Below are positions 16,081-22,035 of a stretch of DNA of 64,000 bases, piece after piece. The notes below the pieces were generated by a model. That model ran no database searches. It saw nothing but the letters and a program-made list of their open reading frames with translations, and was not told where the DNA came from. The stretch covers positions 1 through 64,000 of the forward strand of contig NZ_JAKSXY010000100.1 in the NCBI RefSeq assembly GCF_022829445.1, read 5' to 3'. Position 1 is the stretch's first letter. Every line of letters starts with the position of its first letter. The DNA is from Methylobacterium sp. J-068 (lineage in GTDB: Bacteria; Pseudomonadota; Alphaproteobacteria; Rhizobiales; Beijerinckiaceae). The position numbers and the translations under genes are program-made.

Positions 16081-16752
16081 TTAGGGGCGATCGTTCCACG
16101 CAGACATGAATGTGCAGGATGCTTCGGCAAAGGCGTGAGTTGCAGGACACATTGCAGCTACAATCCGCTGGAGATCACGGTGCCGTTGCTCCAAAGGTAG
16201 ACAGAAGATGGGTTCATGATGAGCGATGCGGTTTCTCAAAGATAGAAGCTCATCAGAAATTGTCCAAGCCGATCGTATTTGCAATGCGGCGTCATGTGGG
16301 AAAATGCGCGCTAAGTTGTAGCGCCAGACGTGAGGCACCTCATAGCTCCTAGAAAGTTGAGAAACCCAAAATCCTGCCGAGAGGTCAGCAACAATCGAAG
16401 GTAGAGGAGCGGGTGAAATTCCTCGCGACCTCTCTTGGCGACCCACCGCATCCTGCAGCCGGGATAGATCCATGCGGGTCAATTGTCTCCGTGCCTTTCG
16501 CTCGTCATATGCCCAGGCGGGACTATACTTCCAGCAGAGAAACTCATTCATGCGGTTGCGGAAGCATACTTCCCAAGCCTGCAGATAGATATACATCGCT
16601 TGAGAAAGCTTTGAGTTCCAATGATATAGGCATATTGCCCTAACATCATCGCCTCTAGAGGCCGATAAATACCTCGCAAATCTCGGAGAACTTAGAGAAA
16701 TTTTTAAGGAGCGGGTAAGTATTTGGTTTTCACCAAAAATCTCTTGCATCAT
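16081..16752 (-). CDS. HEPN-domain Abi-like protein (putative RNase, phage defence)
   Basis: This 223-residue protein has low GC and codon use unlike its neighbours. Its N-terminal helices (about 20-75; YLQAWEVCFRNRMNEFL) and the C-terminal LRNRIAHHEPIF (about 172-183) match Abi_2-like proteins, in which R-N-x-x-x-H is the HEPN ribonuclease site (R173, H178). Such proteins give abortive infection or act as toxins with a partner. An XRE regulator lies 147 nt upstream on the same strand. No export signal is seen. The family call rests on this motif and the overall helical layout; the anti-phage role is inference. Confidence 0.65.
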   Translation of the reverse strand: MMQEIFGENQILTRSLKISLSSPRFARYLSASRGDDVRAICLYHWNSKLSQAMYIYLQAWEVCFRNRMNEFLCWKYSPAWAYDERKARRQLTRMDLSRLQDAVGRQERSRGISPAPLPSIVADLSAGFWVSQLSRSYEVPHVWRYNLARIFPHDAALQIRSAWTISDELLSLRNRIAHHEPIFCLPLEQRHRDLQRIVAAMCPATHAFAEASCTFMSAWNDRP

Positions 16753-16874
16753 ACGCTGGACCGCTCTATGTAGGCATGGTGAGCCTCAGGACCCGGTCAC
16801 TGCGCTTTGACGCACACCCCCAAAGGACGGGACTAAGGTGAGGGCGAGCTTGAAAAAGCTCGCCCTTCGCTTTT
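16753..16874 (+). ncRNA. Candidate small RNA ending in the tetraloop terminator
   Basis: This gap is GC-richer than the two genes beside it, has no ORF, contains a small TGCG-CTTTGA-CGCA hairpin (about 16,801-16,814), and ends in a well-formed intrinsic terminator on the plus strand. I see no definite promoter and no match to a known RNA. It could be an antitoxin RNA, an orphan regulatory RNA or a remnant. Confidence 0.3.
16841..16874 (+). terminator. Intrinsic terminator with GAAA tetraloop
   Basis: An 11-bp stem (16841-16851 with 16856-16866) closed by GAAA is followed by TCGCTTTT on the plus strand. No plus-strand CDS ends here, so it implies a short plus-strand transcript from the 16,753-16,841 gap between the two low-GC genes. 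Confidence 0.65.
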
Positions 16875-16899
16875 AAAGATTTATATAATTAGATTGCAT

Positions 16900-17235
16900 C
16901 TATTTTTCAGGAAGTATCTCAAGTCGAAGTTTCACTCTATCAGCGGGAACACCGTTTAGTGCCGCTATTTTTATTTCGGCAAGCCTAATTATCTCGGCCG
17001 GAGCTTGAGCTAGGCTTTCCTTGTCGGACTTATCTCCGCTTATTATGTATTCCTGGCTTACTTGCAGAGCTTTTGCTATTTCCTGCAGAACGTCTTTGCG
17101 CGGTTTTGAGCCATTTTCTTCCCAATTCCAAACGGCCGTCGTTGTTACATTAACGGCACGCGCTAAATCCGCTTTGGAAAGCCCAAGGGATTCCCTTTTG
17201 CACTTTATACGCTCTGCCATAGTTCGAGTGGCCAT
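16900..17235 (-). CDS. XRE-family helix-turn-helix regulator of the low-GC island
   Basis: This 111-residue protein has a Cro/C1-type HTH at about residues 8-62 (LSKADLARAVNVTTTAVWNWEENG) and a short C-terminal tail without a recognised domain. GAGGCG lies just upstream of the ATG at 17235; a longer in-frame ATG at 17259 lacks a ribosome site. Low GC and AT-ending codons mark it as acquired. It probably represses its own promoter and perhaps the HEPN gene downstream. Confidence 0.8.
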   Translation of the reverse strand: MATRTMAERIKCKRESLGLSKADLARAVNVTTTAVWNWEENGSKPRKDVLQEIAKALQVSQEYIISGDKSDKESLAQAPAEIIRLAEIKIAALNGVPADRVKLRLEILPEK

Positions 17236-17545
17236 TAAGCGCCTCGTACGATCTGTCATTGATATATGCAGCGATCTGAAAAATTCGTCAAGCGAAATGA
17301 AGCAAAAAATTCATGTTACGTGATGCGCTTCTTACATTAGTTCCGCTTGCCAGAGACAGGCGCGGCGGTCTCCACAAGTGCCGCCACGTCTTCCATGCTC
17401 CAAGCCGATTGGGCACGCCAGCAGCTATGGCCGGACTCGTGGCGTCCAGGGTCGGCCCGCGATCTCGGTGCTCAATCTTTGCGCATGCCGCAGACGCTGG
17501 CAAACGGCGAATCATGGCATGGCCGGGTTCCGGGCCGCCTCCGCT
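17236..17545. other. Intergenic boundary of the low-GC island
   Basis: The sequence is AT-rich to about 17,345 and then switches abruptly to host-like GC. The AT-rich part should hold the XRE promoter and operator. The GC-rich part (17,346-17,545) holds no gene that I can support. No direct repeats or tRNA flank the switch. Confidence 0.4.
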
Positions 17546-18349
17546 TTACCGGTGCAGGCTCGCCTCGGCGGCGGCTTCGGATTCGGCGATCAGGGACGCG
17601 AGGATCGCCCGCGCCCGCGCGGTGATCGCGGGGCCGGCCGCCTCCGGCGTTCCCGCCGCGAAGGGCGGCGCGGGGGCGTATTCGGCGACCAGCTGACTCG
17701 TGCGGGCCGAATCGGGTCCACGCAGGCGCGCCGCGAGGGCCAGGGCGAAGTCGAGCCCCGCCGAGATCCCCGCCGCCGTGACGCGGTTGCGGTCGAACAC
17801 CACGCGTTCGTTCACCGGGATCGCGCCGAGGCGCGGCAGCACGCGGTCCCGCACGCACCAGTGCGAGGTGGCGCGGTAGCCCTCGAGCAGCCCGGCCGCG
17901 CCGAGGATCAGGGAGCCGGTGCAGACGCTGGTGACCCAGGCCGCCCGCGCGCCCCGGTCGCGCAGGAAGGCGAGGGTCTCGGCGTCGCGCATCTGCGCCG
18001 GGGTGCCGTCGCCGCCCGGCACGAACAGCACGTCGAGGTCGCGCGGGCAGGTTGTGAAATCGTCGCCGGCCATCAGGACGAGGCCGGTGTCGGAGGGCAC
18101 GGGCCCGGCCGCCCGCGCCACGAGGCGCAAGCCGCCCTCCGCGATCCCCGCCAGCAGCGCCTGCGGGCCGACGAGGTCGAGGGCGGTCATGCCGGGATAG
18201 AGCAGCATCGCGATCCGCAGGGGGCCGGTCTCCGTCTCCGCCGCCCGCCCCGCCGCCCGCGTCCGCGCGGTGGCGACGGCCAGCGACGTCCCGGCCGCGA
18301 GGGCGGCGGCGGCGAAGGCGCGCCGGCTCGGGCGGGGCGCGCGGCTCAC
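17546..18349 (-). CDS. Tat-exported DJ-1/PfpI family protein (isonitrile hydratase-like)
   Basis: This 267-residue protein starts at GTG, overlapping the response regulator stop as GTGA. The first 35 residues are a twin-arginine signal (SRRAFAAAALAAG). The mature part is a DJ-1/PfpI domain beginning RIAMLLYPGMTALDLVGPQ, with the nucleophile elbow TSVCTGSLILGAAGLL carrying the reactive Cys and a following SHW. This layout resembles isonitrile hydratase and GlxA amidase-like domains, but no AraC domain is attached. Export and coupling to a two-component system are unusual for this family. Substrate unknown. Confidence 0.83.
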   Translation of the reverse strand: MSRAPRPSRRAFAAAALAAGTSLAVATARTRAAGRAAETETGPLRIAMLLYPGMTALDLVGPQALLAGIAEGGLRLVARAAGPVPSDTGLVLMAGDDFTTCPRDLDVLFVPGGDGTPAQMRDAETLAFLRDRGARAAWVTSVCTGSLILGAAGLLEGYRATSHWCVRDRVLPRLGAIPVNERVVFDRNRVTAAGISAGLDFALALAARLRGPDSARTSQLVAEYAPAPPFAAGTPEAAGPAITARARAILASLIAESEAAAEASLHR

Positions 18350-18723
18350 GCCCCCGGCGCGGCCGTGAGGGACTGGATCGCCCGGATGATGGCGGTGGCG
18401 CGATAGGGCTTGGTGAAGAACAGGCTGCCGTCGATGAGCCGGGGCGGCGTCTGGGAGAAGCCCGTCGCGTAGATGACCGGCAGGTCGGGCCGCAGGGTCC
18501 GGGCGGCCTCCGCGAGCTGCCATCCGTCCATCTGGCCGGGCAGGCGGATGTCCGTGAACAGAAGGTCGACCGACGAGCCAGCCCTAAGGATGTTCATGGC
18601 GCCCTCGGCGGTCTCGGCCTGGAACACGCCGAATCCCGCATCCTCGAGGTCCGCGGTGATGACCTCGAGCAGGAGGGCCTCGTCCTCGACCAGCAGGATC
18701 TGGAGTTTGGGGGGGCCGCTCAT
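18346..18723 (-). CDS. Single-domain response regulator
   Basis: This 125-residue receiver domain has no output domain. The acidic pocket is EDE (13-15), the phosphoacceptor is D58 in FTDIRLPG, the switch Thr/Ser is in YATGFSQ, and the conserved Lys is in FFTKPYRA. The gene begins 32 nt after the kinase gene and overlaps the DJ-1/PfpI start by 4 nt, so the three are one unit. Being CheY-like, it must act through protein contact or a phosphorelay. Confidence 0.93.
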   Translation of the reverse strand: MSGPPKLQILLVEDEALLLEVITADLEDAGFGVFQAETAEGAMNILRAGSSVDLLFTDIRLPGQMDGWQLAEAARTLRPDLPVIYATGFSQTPPRLIDGSLFFTKPYRATAIIRAIQSLTAAPGA

Positions 18724-18755
18724 CGTCGACAGGGTTCCGTCACGTCAAGATTCCG

Positions 18756-20027
18756 TCACGCGAAGCCGAGGCACGGTGGGGGAGAGGTCCGTACAGCCTC
18801 CGCCCCCGGCTGCGCCGACGATAGCCCGGTTCGGTCCCGTGGCAAGTAGAGCCAGACGGTGGTGCCGCTGCCCGGGTGGCTGACGATCTCCGCATGACCG
18901 TCGGATTGCTTGGCGAAGCCGAAGACCTGGGACAGGCCGAGGCCGGTGCCCTCGCCCACGGCCTTGGTGGTGAAGAACGGCTCGAAGGCCCGCGCGATCA
19001 CCTCCGCGCTCATGCCGCTGCCTTGGTCCTCCACCGCGATCCCGACGTGATCGACGGGGTGCAGTCCGGCGATGTCGGCGGCCTCGGCGGCCGGCACGTT
19101 GCGGGTGCGGATCACGGCGCGCCCGCCGCCCGGCATCGCGTCGCGGGCATTCACCGAGAGGTTGAGGAGGGCGTTCTCCAGCTGGTTGGGATCGACGCGG
19201 ACGGGCCACAGATCGGGCGCGAGGGCCATCTCGGGCATCTCGACGGTCCCGAGCGCGCCGCGCAGGAGCTCCGACAGGTCCCCGATGAGCCGGTTCGGCT
19301 CCACCGGGACGGGCTGGAGGGGCTGGCGCCGCGCGAAGGCCAGCATCTTCTGCACCAGCGCGGCGGCGCGCTCGGCCCCGCTCATGGCGCTGCGCAGGGA
19401 GCGGCGGGCGCCGCTCTCGGCGGGCAGGAAGCGCTCGATGCGATCGAGGTTGCTGATGACGACGCCGAGCAGGTTGTTGAAATCGTGCGCGACGCCTCCG
19501 GTGAGGGCGCCGATCGCGTCCATCTTCTGGCTCTGGCGCAGCATGTCCTCGGCGCGGTCGCGCTCGGCATAGGCCTCGCGCAGGGCCTCGAGGGCCGCGT
19601 CGCGCTCGCACACGCGCGCCTCGAGGTCGGCATTGGCCCTGCGCAGCTGTTCGGGCGAGGGAAGGGCGAGCGCCTGGGGCAGCAGCATCCAGAGCAGGAC
19701 CGCGGTGACGATCGAGCCGGAGGCCGTCACCGCCTTGACCGCGGCCTCGGCCGCGTAGTCCGGCACCCACAGCGTCCAGATCGCGAACAGGTGGGTGATG
19801 CCGCAGGCCATGATGAAGACCGCGAAGGCCCAGAACATCCATCGGAACGCGATATCGCGACGCCGCGTCACGAAGAGGCCGAGGGCCACGGGAATCGTGA
19901 AATAGGCGAGCGCGATGGTGGCGTCCGATACCACGTGGGTCCAGATCAACTCCGGCCGCCACAGGAGGCAGATCCCGTGCGGCGCGAGGCTGCTTCGATC
20001 GAGGAAGCCGGTCAGGGTCTCGAGCAT
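18756..20027 (-). CDS. Sensor histidine kinase with ethylene-receptor-like membrane domain
   Basis: This 423-residue protein has three membrane helices (about 32-53, 64-86 and 95-117). They align without gaps to plant ETR1 at an offset of ten: D35, Y42, I45, P46, I72, C75 and H79 match ETR1 D25, Y32, I35, P36, I62, C65 and H69, the residues needed for copper and ethylene binding. A coiled coil (about 125-165), HisKA with H181 in GGVAHDFNNLLG, and HATPase with NLSVNARDAM, DQGSGM and GTGLGLS follow. No GAF domain is present, unlike ETR1. The start at 20027 is chosen because upstream sequence to 20096 is Pro/Arg-rich and non-domain. It is followed by its receiver gene. Confidence 0.88.
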   Translation of the reverse strand: MLETLTGFLDRSSLAPHGICLLWRPELIWTHVVSDATIALAYFTIPVALGLFVTRRRDIAFRWMFWAFAVFIMACGITHLFAIWTLWVPDYAAEAAVKAVTASGSIVTAVLLWMLLPQALALPSPEQLRRANADLEARVCERDAALEALREAYAERDRAEDMLRQSQKMDAIGALTGGVAHDFNNLLGVVISNLDRIERFLPAESGARRSLRSAMSGAERAAALVQKMLAFARRQPLQPVPVEPNRLIGDLSELLRGALGTVEMPEMALAPDLWPVRVDPNQLENALLNLSVNARDAMPGGGRAVIRTRNVPAAEAADIAGLHPVDHVGIAVEDQGSGMSAEVIARAFEPFFTTKAVGEGTGLGLSQVFGFAKQSDGHAEIVSHPGSGTTVWLYLPRDRTGLSSAQPGAEAVRTSPPPCLGFA

Positions 20028-20166
20028 ATCGGGTCTCGACGGATCATGGGCTCGGCCGCGCGCCGAGGGCGGCCGCGGCGGAGGGGAATGCCGCACATCC
20101 TATAGCCGGAAATCTTGTCGCCAGAAGTTGATTCGGCTTCGCAAAGTCGAGAGGTCTCGCCTAAAA

Positions 20167-20183
20167 TGAACTTATTCAGTTCA
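20167..20183. promoter_or_regulatory. Palindrome upstream of the ethylene-receptor-like kinase
   Basis: TGAACT-TATTC-AGTTCA is a perfect 6-bp dyad in the AT-rich stretch 140 nt before the kinase start. It could be an operator. No regulator gene lies next to it. Confidence 0.3.
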
Positions 20184-20265
20184 AATCGGACGCGCGATAC
20201 ACTTTTATCAAGGCGGTCTCGATCGTGGTCTTCGGCCGACTTGGTTAAGGTATGTCATACTGGGT

Positions 20266-20301
20266 CTCGATGAGCCCGACCCATAGGTCGGGCTCATCGA
20301 G
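20266..20301. repeat. CAGACCTCG-type palindrome, copy 2
   Basis: This perfect 16-bp stem with a CATA loop has outer bases CTCGATGAG/CTCATCGAG that match the element at 14,514. It lies between the M48 protease stop and the kinase promoter. Confidence 0.65.
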
Positions 20302-20337
20302 GTTCGGCGGACGCCCGCCGCCGCGCGGTCGCGCGGG

Positions 20338-20370
20338 CAGACCTCGCCGAGTCGGTCTCACCGAGGTCTG
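20338..20370. repeat. CAGACCTCG-type palindrome, copy 3
   Basis: CAGACCTCG and CGAGGTCTG form a 9-bp stem around a 15-nt loop, 37 nt after copy 2. The pair may form a tandem terminator for the protease operon. The remaining 130 nt to the protease stop hold no gene. Confidence 0.55.
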
Positions 20371-20499
20371 GCATCAGGCGCGAACGCCCCGGATCGCGTG
20401 CCGAGAACACGACGCGGCGGCGCGGCGCGGCCTTCGCCGGCGTCTTCCCGTTCCGGGCAGGCATCGTTCCGGCCGGTCCGAGGCTCAGCGCCGGCGGGG

Positions 20500-22035
20500 C
20501 TATTCCACCACGATCTTGTAGCTCTGGCCGGTCCGCACGCTCGCGCCGCGCTCGAGGCCGTTGAGCACCAGGAAGCGCTCCAGGGCCTTGTCGGGCACCG
20601 CCATGCGCTGGGCCAGGGCCTCGGCCGTCTCGCCGGGGCCGGCGGTGACGACGGCGAGCCGCAGGGGGCGCAAGGCGCGGGTCTCGGCGGGGTCGAGCGT
20701 CGACAGGCTCTCGGTCCAGCGCCGGAAGGCGCCGTCCGGATCGGTGCTGCCCTTGGCGGCCATGATCATCCGGAAGGTGGTGTCGCCCACCCGGATCGCG
20801 GCGAGGCGGAAGGTCCAGTCCTTGCCGCGCGACAGGGCGGTCACGCCCGGATTGCCCGCCACCACACGCGCCTCCAGGGAGCCGGGCTCGATGACGTCGT
20901 TCCAGGTTCCCTTGAGCACCGCGTCGAGGCCCTGGCCGGCATGGCTCTCGACCTGGTCGAACAGCAGGCGCCGGCTGCCCTCGCCCGTGGTGCCGAGCAC
21001 CGCGTTCCGGGTGTTCTCGATCGAGAAGCCCTCGGGCACCTCGAAGGCGATGCCGAGGCCGGGATGCAGGAAGCGGCGTCCGCGCACGAGGCCGTCGCCG
21101 GGATTGTCGCCGTAGGCGATGCCGTCGATGGCCGCGAGGTAGCGCGCGCGCTCGTCGACGCCGAGGCCCGGCGCGCCGATGAGGCGGGCGGCGCGGGTCA
21201 CCAGGGTGACGCGCTCCGCGGTGCCCGGATGGGTCGCCAGCATGTCCGGTTCGCCCGCCAGGCCGGTGCCGGTCTTCAGCGCCGTGGTCCGGTTCAGGGC
21301 GGTGAGGAAGCGCCCGGCGCCGAACGGGTCGTAGCCCGCGCGGGCGAGCGTGCGCACGCCGACGCCGTCCGCCTCAAGCTCCTGGTCGCGCGAGAAGCGC
21401 GCCAGGGCGAATTTCGACTGGTTCTGGAGCTGGGCGCCCGTGACGGGGTCGTTGAGCACGTCGGCCACGACCTTGCTGACGAGCTGCGAGCGCAGGGCCA
21501 ACTCGGTGCGCGCGGTGGCGTGGCGCAGGGTGACGTGGGCGATCTCGTGGGCGAGCACCGCCGCGATCTCGGAGGTGTCGCTCGCCAGGGCGAGCAGCCC
21601 ACGCGTGACGTAGAGCCGGCCGCTCGGCAGCGCGAAGGCGTTGACGACGGGCGAATCCAGCAGGGTGACCGCGTAGGTCTCCTCGGGGCGCTCGGTGGCC
21701 CGCACGAGGCGGTCGGTCACCTCCGTGAGGAGCCTGAGGCTCGTGGGCGCCCGGTACTCGCCGCCGAAGGAGGAGACCAGCTTGGCGTGGTCGGCATCCG
21801 AGCTGTTGCGCTCGCGGCCCGTGGTGCGCGGCGCCTCGCGCGGTACCGCGATGGCGGCCGGCTGCACCGTGGCGCCGGTCTGGTCGCCGATGCAGCCCGA
21901 GAGCAGCAGGGGGACGAGCAGGGCCGTGGCGGACCAGATGCGGGTGCGAGTGTGGGTCCAGGCGCACGTGCGCCGGGGGCCGCCGGGTGTCGGTCCGGCG
22001 CGGAGGGTCGGGCGGAGATTCGGGATCGAGGCCAT
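20500..22035 (-). CDS. M48-family metalloprotease lipoprotein with C-terminal LysM-like domain
   Basis: This 511-residue periplasmic protein has a long basic N-region, a hydrophobic stretch and lipobox LLSGC (Cys48). The zinc site is HEIAH (163-167) with third ligand E221 in ELEADGVG, typical of BepA/YfgC-like M48 proteases that clear misassembled outer-membrane proteins. A C-terminal segment (about 465-511, ending GQSYKIVVE) resembles LysM. The frame extends to 22230, but the region before 22035 is antisense-like. It starts 5 nt after the SNase-like gene, so both are one operon, suggesting envelope maintenance. Confidence 0.9.
   Translation of the reverse strand: MASIPNLRPTLRAGPTPGGPRRTCAWTHTRTRIWSATALLVPLLLSGCIGDQTGATVQPAAIAVPREAPRTTGRERNSSDADHAKLVSSFGGEYRAPTSLRLLTEVTDRLVRATERPEETYAVTLLDSPVVNAFALPSGRLYVTRGLLALASDTSEIAAVLAHEIAHVTLRHATARTELALRSQLVSKVVADVLNDPVTGAQLQNQSKFALARFSRDQELEADGVGVRTLARAGYDPFGAGRFLTALNRTTALKTGTGLAGEPDMLATHPGTAERVTLVTRAARLIGAPGLGVDERARYLAAIDGIAYGDNPGDGLVRGRRFLHPGLGIAFEVPEGFSIENTRNAVLGTTGEGSRRLLFDQVESHAGQGLDAVLKGTWNDVIEPGSLEARVVAGNPGVTALSRGKDWTFRLAAIRVGDTTFRMIMAAKGSTDPDGAFRRWTESLSTLDPAETRALRPLRLAVVTAGPGETAEALAQRMAVPDKALERFLVLNGLERGASVRTGQSYKIVVE

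Follow-up and report, generated by a model that had tools for sequence, protein, structure and literature searches.

The DNA stretch analysed here (the window) comprises 64,000 nucleotides of Methylobacterium sp. J-068 (contig NZ_JAKSXY010000100.1). It carries the genes for an ethylene-receptor-type histidine kinase, a stand-alone receiver and a DJ-1/PfpI protein (hereafter DJ-1), all on the minus strand, reading in the same direction and in that order. We consider it quite likely that the kinase and the receiver form a bacterial two-component ethylene receptor of the AzoEtr1 kind, and that the overlapping DJ-1 gene is a branch-specific addition, probably co-expressed with the pair and not obligate to it. 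The kinase-receiver pair is real, well conserved and of a known kind; the overlapping gene for a predicted exported enzyme is a new variation confined to one branch. Ethylene is a gaseous plant hormone, Methylobacterium is common on leaves, and to our knowledge few microbial ethylene receptors have been proven.

The N-terminus of the kinase matched the full profile of the Pfam family ETR1_N (PF25487) with an E-value of 7.4e-37 and 126 bits, about 100 bits above the cut-off of 27, and was the sole ETR1_N match of the genome. All 14 members of the sensor alignment belonged to the same family. An initial annotation, made from the letters alone, had proposed a gap-free match to plant ETR1 at seven binding residues, and the alignment bore this out: D35, Y42, I45, P46, I72, C75 and H79 of the window kinase correspond to D25, Y32, I35, P36, I62, C65 and H69 of ETR1. 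All seven are also found in AzoEtr1 of Azospirillum brasilense (DNA of strain Sp7, L274). The window kinase has in addition the coupling lysine K98, equivalent to AzoEtr1 K98 and ETR1 K91, which the accessible part of the AzoEtr1 paper (PMC11819568) names as paired with an aspartate. Because these site residues are conserved, copper-ligand binding by the window sensor is likely. An AlphaFold model built from 12 sequences placed helices at residues 25-55, 62-84 and 91-120, followed by a single long helix (125-200) that runs into the kinase; the three predicted membrane helices agree with three hydrophobic stretches, at a helix pLDDT of about 58-72.

Across 99 genomes of the genus we found 42 ETR1_N matches, spread over 40 genomes. 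In 38 genomes, the window's included, one match is at least 70% identical to the window over the sensor and has all seven residues complete, and K98 is kept in 38 of these 38. The other four matches (second copies in G006 and G036, and those in G039 and G062) are at most 50% identical and have lost site residues. Such paralogues, of which the one in G039 keeps a related kinase and receiver, would fit a reading in which the membrane domain encoded in the window is a degenerate member of the ETR1_N family and responds to something other than copper ligands; with the seven residues and K98 intact in the window and in 37 orthologues, we regard that as very improbable. The G039 paralogue itself (L101) has the site letters GCVLVCH, yet its kinase core is 57% identical to that of the window and a receiver gene lies about 12 nt downstream, so that it appears to be a module retained with its copper site lost. 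Outside the genus, ETR1_N was matched in 28 of 385 genomes drawn from the class and in 29 of 398 drawn from the phylum (the draws overlap, and both include the window's own genome). The site was complete in 23 of 33 aligned non-genus rows, which comprised 31 class-level loci, AzoEtr1 and a Novosphingobium protein (L133 gave no alignable match). That many proteobacteria encode such receptors is stated in general terms in the accessible parts of PMC11819568 and PMC7700396.

Presence of the receptor was also set against that of ACC deaminase, which was found above cut-off in 11 of 38 receptor genomes vs 51 of 61 genomes without the receptor (Fisher p 1e-7, raw counts). An avoidance of ACC deaminase by receptor genomes was nevertheless dropped because it was unsupported once kinship was considered: a tree of rpoB gave five supported independent pairs, with a sign test median p of 0.5.

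Behind the sensor, Pfam identified HisKA (27.0 bits against a cut-off of 26.9) and HATPase_c. In an alignment of 12 sequences with the window, H181 and the residues of the N and G boxes were invariant. A motif scan of the 38 genus orthologues found all four motifs as written in 32, and another four deviated only in the written N-box pattern. The receiver has residues D14, D58, T87 and K105. By these motifs, the window appears to encode an intact histidine kinase with a partner response regulator. The receiver gene lies directly downstream of the kinase gene in 37 of the 38 orthologues; in the remaining one (L077) the kinase frame ends early and the contig ends 235 nt beyond. The closest named kinase records are from Methylobacterium (73-81% over the kinase), followed by Methylorubrum, counted here in the same genus group, at about 60%, in agreement with the methylotrophic host envisaged in the initial annotation.

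The receiver matched Response_reg alone in the Pfam scan, with no further domain, as had been noted at the outset. This layout is not new: according to the accessible part of PMC11819568, the AzoEtr1 gene is overlapped by one for a lone 135-residue regulator without output motif, AzoRR-etr1. Because AzoEtr1 has the same kinase-receiver layout, the receiver without output domain appears to be a shared trait and not an oddity. The hybrid kinase model PRK13557 of NCBIfam spans both window proteins below cut-off, with the kinase aligned to model positions 146-401 and the receiver to 417-536. A related kinase and receiver are fused in a single open reading frame (ORF) in at least 6 of the 31 class-level alphaproteobacterial relatives (L105, L109, L114, L115, L120 and L122), a lower bound, as more distant receivers would escape detection. 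From the model span and the fused frames, the best reading of the lone receiver is a hybrid-kinase receiver that has become detached.

The third protein matched DJ-1_PfpI (PF01965) alone in Pfam, with an E-value of 2e-23. The initial annotation had described it as a cysteine-nucleophile protein exported by twin-arginine translocation (Tat), and both C143 and a twin-arginine motif near the N-terminus were found. The motif is present in 43 of 43 distinct orthologues and in 0 of 2 paralogues of the same set (the hydrophobic stretch of the signal was judged by eye, and orthologue L269 appears frame-shifted at its N-terminus); a Tat export signal is thus predicted for this protein. Among solved structures it scores highest to 3ewn (230 bits), followed by the isocyanide hydratase InhA (PDB 3non and 6ni5, 203-205 bits). 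InhA Cys101 and Asp17, whose catalytic roles are described in the accessible part of PMC10971408, align with C143 and D58, and D58, C143 and T144 are kept in 43 of 43 distinct orthologue sequences, the window's included. The protein belongs to an isocyanide-hydratase-like group of the DJ-1 family in which the catalytic Cys and Asp are conserved. We excluded it as the InhA counterpart of this genome, because 3ewn scores higher and a second gene of the genome, on contig C50 and without such a signal, scores 281 bits to InhA. The NCBIfam scores for DJ-1 family glyoxalase III (TIGR01383, 43.9 against a cut-off of 131 bits) and for PfpI deglycase (TIGR01382, 31.4 against 139 bits) fell below cut-off.

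The 4-nt overlap between the receiver stop and the DJ-1 start, reported in the initial annotation, was confirmed (GTGA), although the range 18346-20027 given there covers the kinase and the receiver only and leaves DJ-1 just outside. Because the DJ-1 gene lies directly behind the receiver gene and overlaps it, co-expression with the receptor is probable in the branch of the window. How far this connection extends was read from the DJ-1 genes of the genus. Some gene of the DJ-1 kind (E 1e-20) occurs in all 99 genomes and an orthologue (at least 67% identity) in 66. The orthologue is present in 24 of 38 genomes with the receptor vs 42 of 61 without it (Fisher p 0.66). Sixty-six DJ-1 loci were examined, representing 65 genomes (G028 twice; a fragmented copy in G037 was left out). 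Eleven lie directly behind a receptor and receiver, 30 behind a MoxY-like kinase, a LuxR-type regulator and TenA, and 25 behind neither. The 4-nt overlap is kept in 10 of the 11 linked genomes; G045 instead has an ATG 19 nt past the stop. Leaf117 (L135) and Leaf125 (L145) are examples of Methylobacterium strains with the linked genes. In four close relatives (G035, G085, G088 and G094) DJ-1 lies about 8 kb from the sensor. Whether or not a receptor is present, an amino-acid permease gene follows DJ-1 within 4 kb, as seen in 29 of the 66 loci. On the rpoB tree (96 genomes), the linked state requires two changes, and the nine linked genomes on it fall, together with the four whose DJ-1 is about 8 kb away, inside a supported clade of 13; the linked genomes G060 and G093, without an rpoB match, were left out of the tree. 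The arrangement in these four relatives may represent an insertion into the linked state or its forerunner.

The 30 loci of the second kind (L248, L258, L260, L262, L265, L270-L273, L379-L383 and L385-L400) form a four-gene cluster of a MoxY-like sensor kinase (LapD_MoxY_N), a LuxR-type regulator, TenA/THI-4 and DJ-1 with a Tat signal; a tie of this cluster to methanol or cofactor metabolism would be a guess. The regulator of the MoxY-type pair was found in 40 of 40 genomes searched, at 80-91% identity in 37. At 20 such regulator loci, inspected for about 4 kb on each side, the kinase was present in 20, TenA in 3 and DJ-1 in none. All 11 linked genomes are among these 20, and TenA was found there in none of the 11. 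Since the MoxY-type pair persists elsewhere in the linked species, the DJ-1 gene exists apart from its present partner, and it is found behind two different sensors. A general ethylene-response operon of three genes was therefore rejected, the distribution of DJ-1 being independent of the receptor across the genus. The three-gene order that the initial annotation had proposed to follow in related genomes holds in the 11 linked ones, but these form a single branch and DJ-1 is often elsewhere. Its claim that the pairing is new agrees with the searchable literature, where no paper combined ethylene receptor, DJ-1 and PfpI, but is weakened by the confinement to that branch and by the equal frequency of DJ-1 without the receptor. 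New as it is, the DJ-1 link is limited to a single branch of Methylobacterium, and DJ-1 is a non-obligate part of the signalling system.

The same counts bear on a stronger claim, that receptor and DJ-1 are functional partners and that synthesis of the exported enzyme is coupled to ethylene sensing. The overlap in 10 of 11 linked genomes and the invariant D58, C143, T144 and twin-arginine motif argue for it, and DJ-1 stands repeatedly behind sensors, since 30 of the 66 loci follow another two-component system. The gene is, however, present in 42 of 61 receptor-free genomes and missing from 14 of the 38 with a receptor, it adjoins the receptor in only 11 loci and stands about 8 kb away in the four close relatives, and its neighbourhood with the permease gene is indifferent to the receptor. 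We therefore hold a functional partnership to be possible but rather unlikely. The overlapping gene is a candidate for a downstream or protective function of the receptor.

Resemblance of DJ-1 to isocyanide hydratase raises a further alternative, in which an isonitrile or carbon monoxide (CO) would be the natural ligand instead of, or besides, ethylene, and the exported DJ-1 would remove isonitriles. It would draw on the kept equivalents of Cys101 and Asp17 in a protein whose closest solved relatives are 3ewn and InhA, and on the triggering of ethylene responses in plants by isocyanides and CO, described in the accessible part of PMC13012798. Isocyanide-hydratase-like genes, 52-55% identical to the window DJ-1, were also noticed near ethylene receptors of other lineages, at distances of 3-5 kb (L064, L074, L138 and G432:C7): about 4 kb in G022 (L064) and in G019 (L074), and 4.9 kb in G432. 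L138 is from Methylobacterium oxalidis and may be the same genome as G022. Their proximity may be due to chance. Outside the genus, 28 of 51 genomes with an ETR1_N match had no isocyanide-hydratase-like gene at E 1e-20 and only one had such a gene within 10 kb, a count in which broken assemblies could conceal some near genes. Because of this one case in 51, no enrichment near receptors is claimed, the near cases having been spotted post hoc in a genus where 99 of 99 genomes own such a gene, receptor or not. As 3ewn, for which we know of no reported function, outscores InhA, a closer InhA relative sits on contig C50, and the link between DJ-1 and the receptor is loose, we find the isonitrile alternative very improbable. 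Its boldest form is slightly more so: in one Methylobacterium branch the receptor would be connected with an isocyanide-hydratase-like enzyme that is exported, the copper site would sense, besides ethylene, pi-acceptors such as isonitriles, and the co-translated enzyme would clear these from the periplasm. This form links the plant ethylene responses evoked by isocyanides and CO with the presence of an isocyanide-hydratase relative at a receptor. If true, periplasmic isonitrile removal would defend the cell or keep the sensor free for ethylene, and the enzyme gene, found elsewhere in the genus behind an unrelated two-component system with TenA, would have exchanged its sensor in evolution.

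For the preferred reading, an AzoEtr1-like pair with a co-expressed but non-obligate DJ-1, we propose the following mechanism. From what is known of the family, a dimeric three-helix membrane domain would hold Cu(I) via C75 and H79, D35 and K98 serving to position and couple the copper site. Binding of ethylene, or of another small pi-acceptor ligand, would then be relayed by the coiled linker and alter kinase-core activity; for AzoEtr1, the accessible part of PMC11819568 gives a predicted lowering of autophosphorylation by ethylene. The kinase would autophosphorylate at H181 and pass the phosphate to D58 of the receiver, which, having no output domain, would act by protein contact or further phosphorelay. 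In the branch of the window, ribosomes finishing the receiver may restart at the overlapping GTG, so that DJ-1 would be made together with the receptor pair and then exported by Tat. A scan of 17300-20500 found two promoter-like sites (shuffles gave a mean of 0.1), one on the plus strand and one on the minus strand at 18845-18818, within the end of the kinase gene; it found no minus-strand promoter-like site ahead of the kinase and no terminator-like site. Alternatively, then, the site at 18845-18818 may drive the receiver and DJ-1 apart from the kinase.

Several points weigh against this reading. The promoter-like site could leave room for separate transcription of the receiver and DJ-1. The kinase ORF is broken in 2 of the 38 genus orthologues (L072 and L077). 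Conservation of the site does not by itself establish ethylene as the natural ligand. The AlphaFold model is of only medium confidence (mean pLDDT 71, pTM 0.46), and the sensor profile found no match among PDB sequences up to an E-value of 10. AzoEtr1 differs from the window kinase in having a PAS domain and in its kinase core, which is only about 30% identical; between sensor and kinase of the window protein Pfam found no PAS domain, and the model helix enters the kinase directly. Searches of open-access papers found no binding or phosphorylation data for a Methylobacterium protein. By their titles and abstracts, the open papers on ethylene receptors and Methylobacterium deal with other topics, the passages searched in PMC10452086 name no Methylobacterium receptor, and the paper found for Methylorubrum concerns grapevine; as subscription papers were mostly outside the search, a published list that includes Methylobacterium may exist.

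Table 1. Positions of the receptor locus and adjacent features in the window.
Feature	Position	Strand	Basis
Ethylene-receptor-type histidine kinase, 423 aa (ATG at 20027, stop at 18756): three predicted membrane helices, coiled linker, HisKA, HATPase_c	18756-20027	minus	translation, Pfam, model helices
ETR1_N putative ethylene-binding domain, kinase residues 26-122; D35, Y42, I45, P46, I72, C75, H79, K98	19662-19952	minus	Pfam, alignment
Kinase core, CckA/PRK13557-like: HisKA residues 174-235 (predicted phospho-acceptor H181), HATPase_c residues 279-398	18834-19508	minus	Pfam, NCBIfam, alignment
Stand-alone receiver, 125 aa (frame 18723-18346), predicted phospho-acceptor D58, without output domain	18346-18723	minus	translation, Pfam, alignment
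GTGA, 4 nt shared by the receiver stop and the DJ-1 start	18346-18349	minus	sequence; kept in 10 of 11 linked genomes
DJ-1/PfpI protein, 267 aa (GTG at 18349, stop at 17546), predicted Tat signal, isocyanide-hydratase-like group, C143/D58	17546-18349	minus	translation, Pfam, PDB-sequence matches
Perfect 16-bp hairpin with 4-nt loop, between M48 peptidase gene and kinase; possible gene boundary	20266-20301		function inferred only, without T run

The inverted repeat listed last in Table 1 has no other copy in the window and is possibly the boundary of the upstream gene. Rfam at gathering scores gave no match in the window. Two genes upstream of the receptor lies a weakly SNase-like gene, below the Pfam cut-off. 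Compared with the other 10 linked genomes, about 1.4 kb of additional DNA (16081-17259) separates DJ-1 and the amino-acid permease gene, whose offset from DJ-1 is +2207 in the window vs +776 to +865 in the others. In the additional DNA lie an HTH_3 gene (16900-17259) and an ORF with weak similarity to Abi_2 (24.8, cut-off 25.6); the segment is possibly a small inserted defence or toxin-antitoxin cassette.

With a complete receptor pair in 38 of 99 genomes of Methylobacterium, tractable strains would be available for direct tests of ethylene sensing by leaf bacteria. Among known systems, plant ETR1 shares the seven binding residues and the helix-3 lysine, and differs in its GAF domain, which Pfam did not find in the window kinase. 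Plant ethylene signalling is described in the accessible part of PMC11819568 as mostly independent of kinase activity. InhA and 3ewn share with the window DJ-1 the DJ-1/PfpI family and the catalytic Cys and Asp, at 203-230 bits; the window protein differs from InhA in its twin-arginine signal and is nearer to 3ewn. On plasmid p2 of Novosphingobium sp. ES2-1 (L275), an ethylene-binding domain sits directly on a kinase core 50% identical to that of the window, with an overlapping lone receiver. This plasmid is conjugative, and no DJ-1 is among the six annotated features of the plasmid stretch covered; a cas9 gene and a thermonuclease gene lie near the plasmid pair.

The two functional bacterial receptors cited in the initial annotation, SynEtr1 of Synechocystis and AzoEtr1, are both described as such in the accessible part of PMC11819568, from which the following details are taken. 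SynEtr1 (slr1212) resembles the window system as a bacterial ethylene receptor in which a histidine kinase signals to a response regulator. It differs in being light-responsive too and in having a regulator that drives a small RNA, whereas in the window pair Pfam found neither another sensor domain nor an output domain. For AzoEtr1 ethylene binding was demonstrated, whereas for the window receptor it is predicted, and no DJ-1 gene is named among the AzoEtr1 neighbours. AzoEtr1 is like the window receptor in coming from a plant-associated alphaproteobacterium and in its three-helix ethylene-binding domain, where D35, C75, H79 and K98 carry the same numbers; there too a membrane kinase is followed by a lone receiver without output domain.

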